The position numbers and the translations under genes were made by a program. Of a stretch of DNA of 64,000 nt, positions 4,337 to 46,827 are shown piece after piece. The notes below the pieces were generated by a model, which ran no database searches, was not told where the DNA came from, and was given only the letters and a program-made list of their open reading frames with translations. Numbering within the stretch: the stretch's first letter is position 1; each line of letters begins with the position of its first letter. Origin of the DNA: Bacteroidia bacterium (GTDB taxonomy: Bacteria; Bacteroidota; Bacteroidia; Bacteroidales; CAJPTX01); assembly GCA_002749065.1 (NCBI GenBank), contig PDTX01000015.1:16974-80973 (forward strand), given 5' to 3'.

Positions 4337-5091
4337 CGTCCCTCGGCCAGCTCTCTGGCCCGGGCCAGGTCGGCGGGTGTGTCCACGCTCAGCCCCTCGT
4401 CCTCCACCTGCACGGCCCGCATGCGGTATCCATTCTCGAGCCAGCGGAGCTGCTCCAGCCCCTCCAGCTGCTCGAGCGGGGTGGGCGAAAGGCGCGACAC
4501 CTCCTGCAGGACGTTGGCCCGGAAGGCGTACACCCCGATGTGCTTGTAGCGGGGGCAATCGGGCAGCAGGGCCTCGTTCTGTGCGTAGGGGATGGCGCTC
4601 CGGCTGAAGAGGAGGGCATCCCCCTCCTGGTCGAGGACCACCTTGGGCCAGCTGGGGTTCTGCACGTCCTCGCCCTGGCCGAAGGGGCGGACGAGGGTGG
4701 CGATGCGCACCCGCTCGTCGTCGAACTCCAGGACCAGGCGGCGGAGGTTGTCGCCGTCGAGGAAGGGCTCGTCGCCCTGCACGTTGACCACCAGCTCGGG
4801 CGATACGCCCACCTGCCGCAGATGCACCAGCGCCTCGGCCACGCGGTCCGTGCCGCTCCGGTGGGCCTGGCTGGTCAGCACGGCGCGCCCGCCGAAGGCC
4901 TCCACGGCCGTCACAATCCGCTCATCGTCCGTGGCCACTATCGCGTAGCCCAGCGCGGCGACTGCCCGCCGGTATACCCACTCCACCATGGGGTGCCCAC
5001 CGATGAGCTCGAGGGGCTTGCCCGGCAGCCGGGTACTCGCGTACCGGGCCGGGATTACCCCCACCACCCTGATGTCCATCTCGCGCACCAT
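4324..5091 (-). CDS. kdsB: 3-deoxy-manno-octulosonate cytidylyltransferase
   Basis: VVGVIPARYASTRLPGKPLELIGGHPMVEWVYRRA...VVNVQGDEPFLD. Confidence 0.93.
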   Translation of the reverse strand: MVREMDIRVVGVIPARYASTRLPGKPLELIGGHPMVEWVYRRAVAALGYAIVATDDERIVTAVEAFGGRAVLTSQAHRSGTDRVAEALVHLRQVGVSPELVVNVQGDEPFLDGDNLRRLVLEFDDERVRIATLVRPFGQGEDVQNPSWPKVVLDQEGDALLFSRSAIPYAQNEALLPDCPRYKHIGVYAFRANVLQEVSRLSPTPLEQLEGLEQLRWLENGYRMRAVQVEDEGLSVDTPADLARARELAEGRWLD

Positions 5092-5229
5092 AAGCTTTTA
5101 CCTCCTTATAATCTAGTCCATTACCCGCTACACAAGCTCCGCGAAGGTAGCGCAAATTGCCCATCCGGCAAGCCCGTCGGCGCGGGGTCTAAGCGGGTCA
5201 TCCCCGGCCCACGGAACGCTCCTGCGGGC

Positions 5230-6744
5230 CTATCGGTGCTCCGCGCGCAGGAGGTCGGCTATCTCCTTGACGGGCGTGAAGGTGGAGGGGGGGACCTCCA
5301 CGAAGAGGCTAATCCAGTCGGCCTGGGCCCCGTTCCACAGCCCGGGTAGCTCCTGCGCCAGGATCTCGTCGTGGCCGATGGTCTTGCGGGCGATGAAGCC
5401 CGTGGCGGGGTCCACGTGGCGCTGGAGGTCGAAGCGCTCGCCGTGCCGGTTGCGCAGCCCGCAGACGATTTCCACCGGGTTGAAGTACTCGGCCTGCCGG
5501 AGCATGCGCTGCACCTCGGGGCGGGTGGTGTCCATCTGGGAGGTCTCCACGATTTGGAGGGATTGCTCCCCGCTGGCATGCCGCACCCAGAAGGGGCCGC
5601 CCCCCGGCTCGCCCTGGTTCCTGACCATGCCGCAGACGCGGAGGGGCCGATTGAGCATACGCCTGAGGTAGTCGGCCCGCTCCGGCCCCAGCTCGCGGGC
5701 GGGGGCATCCGTCAGCCGGGCTGCGGGGCGTAGCTGCAGCTCCCGCACGGCGTGGGTCAGGAGGTCGAATACGCGCTCCGGCGCGGGCTTGGTGTCCAGG
5801 ATGTCGAGCAGGTCGAAAATCTCCCGCTGGGTCTTGAGGAGCAGGCCGCCCAGGGCCCGGGAGTAGGCCACGGTGTCGCCCTTGAGGTGGTCGGGGGCGA
5901 CGTTGTCGATGTTCTTGATGAAGACCATCTCGCTCTCCATCGCGCCGAGGTTCTGGAGGAGCGCGCCGTGCCCGGCCGGGCGGAAGACGAGCCGCCCGTC
6001 GGCATCGCGGTAGGGCGAGCCATCGGGCCGGGCGGCGATGGTGTCGGTGGAGGCCGCCTGCTGGCTGAAGTCGAGCTGGTACCTGACCCCGTGGCGCTGC
6101 TCATACGCCGGGAGGACGGCCTGGGCGTGGCGGCGGATGTCGGCCTCGTGCTGGGGCGATACGGTGAAGTGCACGCTGACGGTGCCGTCGGCCTGACGGG
6201 CGTAGAGCGCGCCCTCCACGAGGTGCTCCTCCACGGGGGTGCGGACGCTCCCATCCTCGAGCCGGTGGAAGGGTATCAGGGCCTTGGGCATGGCGGCCAG
6301 GCGGAGGCCATCGTCGCCGATCAGGGCGCGGACTATGGGCGCGTAGTCCCCCTTCGCCTCCAGCTCGACGACCTGCTGGCCGCGCCGCGCGAGGTGGGCC
6401 TCCACCACGGGGGCGAAGGGGTAGCTGGCCAATGGCGCGCCGAGGGGATGCTCCGCGCCGGGCTGCTCGAGGTAGGCGTGGAGCTTCTTGAAGAGGCGGG
6501 TGGCCGCGCCCGAGGCCGGGACGAACTTGCAGCGGCTCTTCCGGCTGGCATCGTAGGTCTGCTGCAGCGCGTGCAGCTCGGCGGGGGCGAGGCGGATAAT
6601 CCCCCGGCCTAGGGTGGCTGGGGCCTCGAGCTGCAGACGGGGGAAACCGGTGCGGAAATGCTCTAGCTGGGCCTGGACCAGGGACGGGGTGAGGCCGTGG
6701 TCCTCCATCTGCTGAATATCCTGGGGGGAGAATGGGTATGCCAT
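5230..6744 (-). CDS. DUF4301 family protein
   Basis: 504 aa; N-term FSPQDIQQMEDHGLTPSLVQAQLEHFRTGFP and CKFVPASGAATRLFKKL as in Bacteroidota DUF4301 proteins. Confidence 0.75.
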   Translation of the reverse strand: MAYPFSPQDIQQMEDHGLTPSLVQAQLEHFRTGFPRLQLEAPATLGRGIIRLAPAELHALQQTYDASRKSRCKFVPASGAATRLFKKLHAYLEQPGAEHPLGAPLASYPFAPVVEAHLARRGQQVVELEAKGDYAPIVRALIGDDGLRLAAMPKALIPFHRLEDGSVRTPVEEHLVEGALYARQADGTVSVHFTVSPQHEADIRRHAQAVLPAYEQRHGVRYQLDFSQQAASTDTIAARPDGSPYRDADGRLVFRPAGHGALLQNLGAMESEMVFIKNIDNVAPDHLKGDTVAYSRALGGLLLKTQREIFDLLDILDTKPAPERVFDLLTHAVRELQLRPAARLTDAPARELGPERADYLRRMLNRPLRVCGMVRNQGEPGGGPFWVRHASGEQSLQIVETSQMDTTRPEVQRMLRQAEYFNPVEIVCGLRNRHGERFDLQRHVDPATGFIARKTIGHDEILAQELPGLWNGAQADWISLFVEVPPSTFTPVKEIADLLRAEHR

Positions 6745-9502: not shown

Positions 9503-10270
9503 CTAGCCGATGCGGTGCGAGACCTCCCGGAACAGGAAGCTCCTCCGCTGCCCGTCGCGCAGCTCCAGCTGCAGCTGGCCCGTCGGGAGTATGCCCGCAA
9601 TCCGGGCCTCGATGCGCTCCCCGCTCGCGCCGACGATGAAGGGGTGGTAGCCCTCCCGCCAGAAGAGCCGCTCGAGGTACTCGCCGTGTATCTCATCCTG
9701 CTCGCCGTGGGGCAGCCGGTCGAGCTGCTTGATGATGCGCTCGGCGATGCGCTCGGCCAGCTGCGCCGCGTCCGGCACCGTCGGCACCAGCTCCTGGAGG
9801 CCGACGGCCGGGGGGCAGTAGTGGGCGGGGGACTGCGGGCGCGCGGCGACGTTGAGCCCGAAGCCGATGATGGCGCCCCGGAGCCACTCCCCCTGGAGGG
9901 TCGTGCTGATGAGTATGCCGCAGATCTTCCGCTCGCCCACGAGAATGTCGTTGGCCCACTTCACCTGGCTATGGACCCCGAGCGCGGCCAGGGCCTCCCC
10001 GACGGCCAGCGAGGCGGCCTGGTTGAGCACGAAGGCATGCTCCGCGGCCACGGCCGGGCTGCCCTTCGGCCCGAGGGGGAGGTCCACCAGCAGGGAGGCC
10101 GTGACATCGCCCGGCCGCGCATCCCAGGTGTTGCCCCGCTGGCCCAGGCCGTGGTGCTGCTCCCGGGCGATGATGAGCGCTGGGCGCGGTAGGCTGGCGG
10201 CGTACTCCGCGGCGTAGGTGTTGGTCGAGCCGGTGCTCTCGAGCACTATCGTACATTGTATTCTGGGCAT
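9503..10270 (-). CDS. birA: Biotin--[acetyl-CoA-carboxylase] ligase
   Basis: STNTYAAEYA, GLGQRGNTWDARPGDVTASLLV, VKWANDILVGERKICGILIS. Confidence 0.88.
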   Translation of the reverse strand: MPRIQCTIVLESTGSTNTYAAEYAASLPRPALIIAREQHHGLGQRGNTWDARPGDVTASLLVDLPLGPKGSPAVAAEHAFVLNQAASLAVGEALAALGVHSQVKWANDILVGERKICGILISTTLQGEWLRGAIIGFGLNVAARPQSPAHYCPPAVGLQELVPTVPDAAQLAERIAERIIKQLDRLPHGEQDEIHGEYLERLFWREGYHPFIVGASGERIEARIAGILPTGQLQLELRDGQRRSFLFREVSHRIG

Positions 10271-10469
10271 GGTCTGGCGCTTAGAGTTCCGGGTAAAGGT
10301 AGCAAGAATACTGGTCAATAGCGCAAAAGGTTTACCTTTGCCTCGCGTAGGGGGCCCACTGCGCGCGGCCAGCCCGGCTGGATGTCGCCCGGATTCGGGG
10401 CTACGGGGCGAGGCTGCGGCCCCGCGCGAGCGTTCTTCTGCAATGTAAATCTCTAACACATATATCGCT

Positions 10470-12314
<1,845 letters not shown>

Positions 12315-20272: not shown

Positions 20273-20554
20273 CCCCTCCGGGCCTTTGGCCGGGAATTGC
20301 AAGCGGGGTGCGGGCTTCTCCGTGCCCCATTCACCCGGCTGGCGACAGGGCGTTCGGCACGGCGCGACGCGGGGCTTTGCCCCTGCCAATCGCGGGCGAA
20401 CCGGGGGGAGCTTGGGGGGCAGACAGGATTGGTGCGAAGCTAAGGCCCAATGCACGAAGACGCTACGGCCATACGGCTGGGAGGCCGATGACGAGCAAAG
20501 GCCCATGATTTGGCCCCCGATTCAAATCTCGATTAGAAAATACCCCCCTCGCCC

Positions 20555-20584
20555 TTGCGCAGTAGAAAAAGAGCATTACCTTTG
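20555..20584 (+). promoter_or_regulatory. Bacteroidota-type promoter (TTG-N19-TACCTTTG) for tRNA-Gln
   Basis: TTG 20555-20557, TACCTTTG 20577-20584, tRNA begins 9 nt downstream. Confidence 0.7.
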
Positions 20585-20593
20585 CACCGCATT

Positions 20594-20663
20594 TGACCCA
20601 TGGTGTAACGGTAGCACAGCAGATTTTGGTTCTGTTAGCCAAGGTTCGAATCCTTGTGGGTGT
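20594..20663 (+). tRNA. tRNA-Gln (anticodon TTG) with disrupted 3' acceptor end
   Basis: D arm GTG/CAC, anticodon stem GCAGA/TCTGT with loop TTTTGGT (anticodon TTG), T arm CAAGG-TTCGAAT-CCTTG; acceptor TGACCCA pairs with TGGGT for 5 bp, then GT replaces the expected CA. Confidence 0.75.
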
Positions 20664-22146
20664 GGACCGTTTGCAGCGGGCCGCCGTCGTCCAAGTCGGC
20701 GATGGTGCGGGCCACCTTCAGTATCCTGTCGTAGGCCCGCGCCGAGAGGCTCAGCTGGCGCATGGCGTTCTTCATGAGGCGGAGCGACTCCTCGTCGAGC
20801 CGGCAGTACTCCCGTATCATCGGGCTGGACATCTGGGCGTTGGAGTGTATCCCCGCGCTGCGGAAGCGCTCCTGCTGTATCCGCCGCGCCGCCACCACCC
20901 GCTCGCGCACCGTGCGGCTGTCCTCGCTCAGGGGCAGCTGCGAGAGCTTCTCGAAGGGCACGGGCACCACCTCGATGTGCATGTCGATGCGGTCCAGGAG
21001 CGGGCCGGATATCTTGTTGAGGTAGCGCTGCACCATCGCCGGGGTGCAGACGCACTCCTTGGTGGGGTGGTTGTAGTAGCCACAGGGGCAGGGGTTCATC
21101 GAGGCGATCAGCATGAAGGAGGCCGGGAAGTCGGCGCTCGACCGCGCCCGCGACACGGTGATGTGCCGCTCCTCCAGCGGCTGGCGCATGACCTCCAGCA
21201 CGCTCCGCTTGAACTCGGGCAGCTCGTCGAGGAAGAGCACGCCGTTGTGCGCGAGGCTGATTTCGCCCGGCTGGGGGAACTGCCCGCCCCCCACCAGCGC
21301 CACGTCCGAGATCGTGTGGTGCGGGCTGCGGTACGGACGCGCCCGCACCAAGCCCTGCTCGGAGGGCACCAGCCCGAGGACCGAATGAATCTTGGTGGTC
21401 TCCAGCGCCTCGTCCAGCGTCAGCGGTGGGAGGATGGTCGGCAGCCGCTTGGCCAGCATGGTCTTGCCCGAGCCGGGGGGGCCTATCATGATCAGGTTGT
21501 GCCCCCCGGCCGCGGCCACCTCCAGGGCGCGCTTCACCCCCTCCTGGCCCCGGACATCGGAGAAGTCCTGCTCGTACTCATCCCCCGTGCTGGCGAAGAC
21601 CTCGTAGCCCTCATGCTCCATCAGCCGGAGCGCATCCCCCTCGCCCTGCAGGAAGGACACCACCTCGCTGAGCCCGCCCGCCGAGTAGACCTCCAGCCCG
21701 TGCACCACCGAGGCCTCGTGGGCATTGCCCGCCGGGACGATGATGCCACGGAAACCCTCCTTCTTGGCCTGCAGCGCCATGGGCAGCACGCCCCGCACCG
21801 GCCGCAGCGTCCCGTCGAGCGACAGCTCGCCCATGACGATGAACTCGCCCAGGCGCGCATCATCCACCTGCCCGGAGGCCGCCAGGATGCCCACCGCCAG
21901 CGGGAGGTCGTAGGCCGAGCCCTCCTTGCGGATGTCGGCCGGGGCCATGTTGATCACCACGGCCTGACGGGGGAAGGCCAGCCCGTTGGTCGCGAAGGCC
22001 GAGCGGATGCGATGCTCCGACTCCTTCACCGCGTTGTCGGGCAGCCCGACAAGGCAGAGGTTCACCCCCTTGCTCACGTGCACCTCTATCGAAATGGTCT
22101 GGGCCTCTATCCCGTGGACCGCGCTACCGTAGGTCTTTACCAGCAT
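20635..22146 (-). CDS. comM: YifB/ComM family Mg chelatase-like AAA ATPase, C-terminus altered (runs into tRNA-Gln antisense)
   Basis: MLVKTYGSAVHGIEAQTISIEVHVSKG...GPPGSGKTMLAKRLPTILP...SMNPCPCGYY; ends ...ILKVARTIADLDDGGPLQTVH-THKDSNLG*, where a H(I/L)AEA-type helix is expected after QTVH. Confidence 0.85.
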   Translation of the reverse strand: MLVKTYGSAVHGIEAQTISIEVHVSKGVNLCLVGLPDNAVKESEHRIRSAFATNGLAFPRQAVVINMAPADIRKEGSAYDLPLAVGILAASGQVDDARLGEFIVMGELSLDGTLRPVRGVLPMALQAKKEGFRGIIVPAGNAHEASVVHGLEVYSAGGLSEVVSFLQGEGDALRLMEHEGYEVFASTGDEYEQDFSDVRGQEGVKRALEVAAAGGHNLIMIGPPGSGKTMLAKRLPTILPPLTLDEALETTKIHSVLGLVPSEQGLVRARPYRSPHHTISDVALVGGGQFPQPGEISLAHNGVLFLDELPEFKRSVLEVMRQPLEERHITVSRARSSADFPASFMLIASMNPCPCGYYNHPTKECVCTPAMVQRYLNKISGPLLDRIDMHIEVVPVPFEKLSQLPLSEDSRTVRERVVAARRIQQERFRSAGIHSNAQMSSPMIREYCRLDEESLRLMKNAMRQLSLSARAYDRILKVARTIADLDDGGPLQTVHTHKDSNLG

Positions 22147-22172
22147 AACCGCACTCCCTTTATATTCGCTAG

Positions 22173-22180
22173 CAAAGGTA
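22173..22180 (-). promoter_or_regulatory. -7 element TACCTTTG upstream of comM
   Basis: CAAAGGTA on plus strand, 27 nt upstream of the comM ATG. Confidence 0.5.
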
Positions 22181-22260
22181 ATGATTTTGCGCGGAGGGGA
22201 GGGACGCACGGGGAGACTTCTGCCCTCGGTCCGCGGTAATCCGGCGCAGGGGCTGGCTGG

Positions 22261-46685: not shown

Positions 46686-46827
46686 AACGTTCATGATATT
46701 GCCCGGGCGGTTTGGCCAAAAAGGCGGCCCTTACCCGGCCGGGGCGGGGGGGGCCGCGCGGGCCCGAGGCGCCTGCGCGCGCTCGGCGGGACATGCCGGC
46801 CGGGGCGACCCCTCCGGCGGGGCGGTT

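Follow-up and report, generated by a model that had tools for sequence, protein, structure and literature searches.

A joint that cuts tRNA-Gln(TTG) and comM in a draft bacterial genome, with a local assembly error as its likeliest cause

In the window, by which we mean the whole analysed stretch of 64,000 nucleotides, two neighbouring genes are damaged at a single joint, where the 3' end of tRNA-Gln(TTG) and the tail of comM are both gone. The joint is most likely ordinary, an assembly error or a trivial deletion, and not new biology. With a probability of roughly 0.6 it is a local error in this metagenome-assembled draft, and from the sequence comparisons described below we infer that the DNA was lost in the assembly rather than in the cell. 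This explanation is favoured because the nearest related genome carries both genes unbroken, in the same order and with 244 bp more between them. In the living organism tRNA-Gln and comM are probably both whole.

Both genes lose their ends at one position

The tRNA gene can be followed to nucleotide 70 (Table 1), after which the bases read GTGGACCG..., the sequence being antisense comM from 20662 on. ARAGORN still calls a tRNA-Gln(ttg) at 20593-20665, and the match to the Rfam model RF00005 covers positions 3-68 of 71 only (50.4 bits); each of the genome's 31 remaining tRNA matches spans model positions 1-71. The 5' strand of the acceptor stem, TGACCCA (20594-20600), stands opposite TGGGT followed by GT (20657-20663), with mismatches U1-U72 and G2-G71 and with G in place of A73. 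In the window gene the acceptor stem falls short of 7 bp, the pairs U1-A72 and G2-C71 being absent. Upstream of it, a TTG and the element TACCTTTG together make up what we take to be a probable promoter of the Bacteroidetes type.

On the other strand, the ComM frame (20635-22209, minus) ends ...LQTVHTHKDSNLG*, its last eight codons (24 nt) and the TAA lying inside tRNA-Gln. The true C-terminal 17 residues, which are LAEAIQYRTLDREDWAD in the sister genome, are gone from the window. The match to the profile Mg_chelatase_C ends at position 86 of 94 in the window ComM and at 94 of 94 in that of the sister, which ends HLAEAIQYRTLDREDWAD; this end is conserved across the alignment of ComM from relatives. 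An earlier note, made from the sequence alone, had described the fusion of the two genes, the U·U pair at 1-72, the G·G pair at 2-71 and the THKDSNLG tail, and it proved right in every detail that we checked (sequence, ARAGORN, RF00005, ComM frame).

Table 1. Features at and around the joint (positions in the window)
Feature	Position	Strand	Basis
Spacer of 66% GC, showing no similarity to sister DNA, on the far side of the tRNA	20298..20533	.	sister comparison
Probable tRNA promoter, intact: TTG at 20555-20557, TACCTTTG at 20577-20584	20555..20584	+	sequence reading, kept in sister
tRNA-Gln(TTG), nucleotides 1-70, without encoded 71-73	20594..20661	+	ARAGORN, Rfam, sister comparison
comM frame running on into antisense tRNA: THKDSNLG, TAA at 20637-20635	20635..20661	-	sequence, translation
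Blunt joint with 244 bp (exactly L063:4713-4956) fewer than the sister	20661..20662	.	block alignment, no direct repeat of at least 4 bp
comM coding sequence, up to ...GGPLQTVH	20662..22209	-	frame, alignment, profile match

The locus in the sister genome

The sister is the genome DOLZORAL124_57_6 (here G001, contig PDRH01000010.1), which is 68% complete; no other genome of the genus entered the comparison. On one contig it carries purH, an OMP gene, a SiaC gene, tRNA-Gln and comM in this order. As the earlier note had suggested, we compared the two loci, and in the sister both genes are whole and do not overlap. Its tRNA-Gln has a complete acceptor stem (TGACCCA/TGGGTCA) and A73. Since both gene ends match the consensus of the order, the sister arrangement was taken as ancestral.

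Window positions 20534-20661 align to 4586-4712 of the sister locus L063, and 20662-21556 to 4957-5851 of the same locus. This alignment places the joint exactly between two bases (Table 1), where an approximate position of 20660-20663 had been proposed for the loss of both ends, and it indicates that the window joins true neighbours in their true order and orientation. A deletion-type joint, as proposed earlier, is thus what we see, the sister being unbroken and having the 244 bp that the window is missing. Outside the joint the genes are well preserved: the tRNA body is identical to that of the sister (68 of 68 bases), the block containing promoter and tRNA (20534-20661) is 95% identical, and ComM as far as the joint shows 97% identity at the protein level. 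At the level of DNA, purH and comM are only 82-85% identical between the two genomes. There is no sign of decay, because the tRNA body and ComM agree with the sister at 100% and 97%.

In the sister, the missing segment consists of the 3' end of the tRNA, the comM tail and, between them, a hairpin-bearing spacer. The hairpin is strong: folding of the 95 bases that surround it yields about -33 kcal/mol. One of the two ORFs that overlap the segment is the comM tail; the other, of 68 aa, runs antisense to this tail. Neither the segment as a whole nor its tRNA end has a match elsewhere in the assembly of the window, and on this basis we rejected a transposition of the missing end to another place in the genome. 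The breakpoints share no word of at least 4 bp between the two 30-base stretches compared (15 bases on each side, with the sister sequence as proxy), and a microhomology-mediated deletion was ruled out on this ground.

These properties bear on the proposal of the earlier note that imprecise excision of a tRNA-targeting element removed the gene ends. Integration commonly takes place at the 3' ends of tRNA genes, and the two species also diverge in the DNA flanking the opposite side of the tRNA; both points would fit a scar left by the excision or integration of such an element. However, in the sister, the sole other genome of the genus compared, neither integrase nor cargo lies between tRNA and comM: the roughly 240 bp of this stretch contain no separate gene. 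In addition, the breakpoints lack a repeat of the attachment type and the missing tRNA end is found nowhere else in the assembly. We therefore did not retain the proposal and regard a scar of this kind as very improbable.

The possibility that the overlap between tRNA-Gln and comM is a conserved arrangement, also raised earlier, is refuted for the genus by the sister. Of 29 comM loci inspected in further genomes of the order, none has a tRNA-Gln within the DNA examined. Searches of the genus, the order and named genomes likewise revealed no second strain with the same joint.

Further differences between the two genomes were recorded. Where the window has the GC-rich spacer of Table 1, the sister carries two genes, one for an OMP beta-barrel and one of the SiaC family (L063:3304-4602, about 1.3 kb), and this stretch has no DNA match in the assembly of the window. 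A clean indel of approximately 135 bp distinguishes window positions 10313-10314 from L102:8461-8596; it is situated before the frame 9503-10612 (minus strand) and, being intergenic, was ruled out as a similar gene break. Between two conserved blocks, the sister (L103:1507-2613) has about 1 kb more than the window (46703-46805).

Supply of tRNA-Gln and the acceptor end

In the tRNA-Gln rows of relatives printed from the alignment, U1, G2, C71, A72 and A73 are invariant. The mismatched acceptor end of the window is not conserved, since the sister and the relatives in the order encode U1-A72, G2-C71 and A73. The pairs U1-A72 and G2-C71 are identity elements of bacterial tRNA-Gln; mutations of determinants cost up to 10^5-fold, and transamidation likewise depends on U1-A72 (PMC9976931). 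Given this invariance and the role of the two pairs as identity elements, the cell should be unable to do without an intact tRNA-Gln gene.

The assembly of the window is a draft of 17 contigs and 1.32 Mb with an estimated completeness of 74%. A count of tRNA-Gln genes in the whole assembly, also suggested in the earlier note, gave the broken TTG copy and one CTG copy; within these 74% the broken gene is the only tRNA-Gln(TTG), and no intact one was found. A tRNA-Gln with the anticodon CTG is not expected to read CAA, a codon that the genome does use (5 CAA versus 83 CAG in six genes). According to our BLAST analysis, relatives with a match mostly have a single tRNA-Gln, nearly always TTG, at a threshold that would miss divergent copies, and some have two or more matches at this threshold. 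Neither GlnRS (TIGR00440) nor GatB (TIGR00133) was found in the 74%-complete assembly. Since a quarter of the genome including these genes is missing, an intact second tRNA-Gln(TTG) could be located in the unassembled part. Among the tRNAs typed in the assembly there is none for Ala, Ile, Phe, Cys, Asn or Glu, which fits its completeness.

It could be speculated that the overlap is functional, the tRNA-Gln being transcribed together with the antisense 3' end of comM and its acceptor end being repaired after transcription, as in the editing of animal mitochondria, or being used with a stem of 5 bp. The conservation of the tRNA body and of the promoter region (about 95%) is what would be expected of a gene in use, and no replacement tRNA-Gln(TTG) was seen in the assembly. 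However, the sister encodes a complete acceptor stem without any overlap, and the minimum-energy structure of the window RNA has lost the acceptor stem that the sister RNA forms. Moreover, editing would leave unexplained why comM loses its tail at the same joint, and a review reports editing of tRNA ends only from eukaryotic organelles and from no bacterium or archaeon (PMC4284800), which makes a functional overlap highly unlikely. Even harder to credit is the full scenario of a real and fixed joint, no other tRNA-Gln(UUG) and a working tRNA produced by post-transcriptional repair of the 3' acceptor end, a process that is not known from bacteria. A real joint with a functional tRNA would provide the first example in bacteria of this kind of tRNA 3' end repair, but nothing that we found points there, and we consider such a repair improbable.

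Origin of the joint and known systems

A local assembly error is the simplest explanation, because a double break that looks lethal hits otherwise pristine genes, one of them normally essential. During assembly, approximately 244 bp comprising the 3' end of the tRNA, the hairpin spacer and the comM tail would have been dropped between true neighbours: the assembly probably broke down where the strong hairpin lies, and the flanking ends were then abutted. Such local errors are common in drafts, 13 having been described in one curated genome of 1.13 Mb (PMC7111523). Among 37 gene pairs matched over the aligned parts of the window, comM alone was recognised as severed by a joint of this kind, differences at the ends of further genes having been examined in part, and general decay with many broken genes in the region was not seen in these 37 genes.

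Three observations count against an assembly error. No Ns were present in 187 kb of assembly loci counted (overlapping stretches included), so that there is no trace of unfilled scaffold gaps. Errors in de Bruijn graphs normally need a shared k-mer, and the joint lacks one. Finally, with a completeness of 74%, an intact second tRNA-Gln(TTG) could simply be unassembled. The earlier caveat that a population variant and an assembly joint are both possible was justified. A real, recent deletion of about 244 bp in the strain or population is the less likely of these two, but it deserves serious consideration. It would have arisen by illegitimate blunt end-joining around the hairpin and would have inactivated ComM partly or wholly, which would be tolerable. 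The tRNA copy would be dead or weak, with a further tRNA-Gln(TTG) gene from the unassembled quarter standing in for it, or would still work poorly. The correct order of the joined neighbours and the absence of Ns from the stretches counted are in line with this, as are the roughly one quarter of the genome left unassembled and the additional tRNA-Gln matches of some relatives. The intergenic indel near 10313 shows, furthermore, that the two species differ by clean indels. On the other hand, the assembly contains no intact tRNA-Gln(TTG) and relatives mostly have one such gene, neither gene has decayed outside the joint, and the loss of two adjacent gene ends, one of them from a normally essential gene, is unlikely as the consensus of a population. 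We therefore prefer an assembly error, and for users of this draft it means that the sequence probably contains a 244-bp hole which results in a wrong tRNA-Gln and a wrong end of ComM.

The joint can be compared with three known systems. With the scars that tyrosine-integrase elements leave in tRNA genes it has in common a breakpoint in the 3' part of the tRNA gene, but here there is no element and no direct repeat, and the tRNA end was not restored. In the 3' end editing of animal mitochondria (land snail, human tRNA-Tyr/Cys, Lithobius; PMC4284800), the unpaired 3' strand of the acceptor stem also belongs to a neighbouring gene. The present case differs in that it concerns a bacterium, is a single case with a normal gene in the sister, and that the neighbouring gene is damaged too. 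With the local assembly errors of metagenome-assembled genomes (PMC7111523) the joint would share a short region in which the consensus misjoins true neighbours and gives wrong gene ends, but it carries no N run or repeat.
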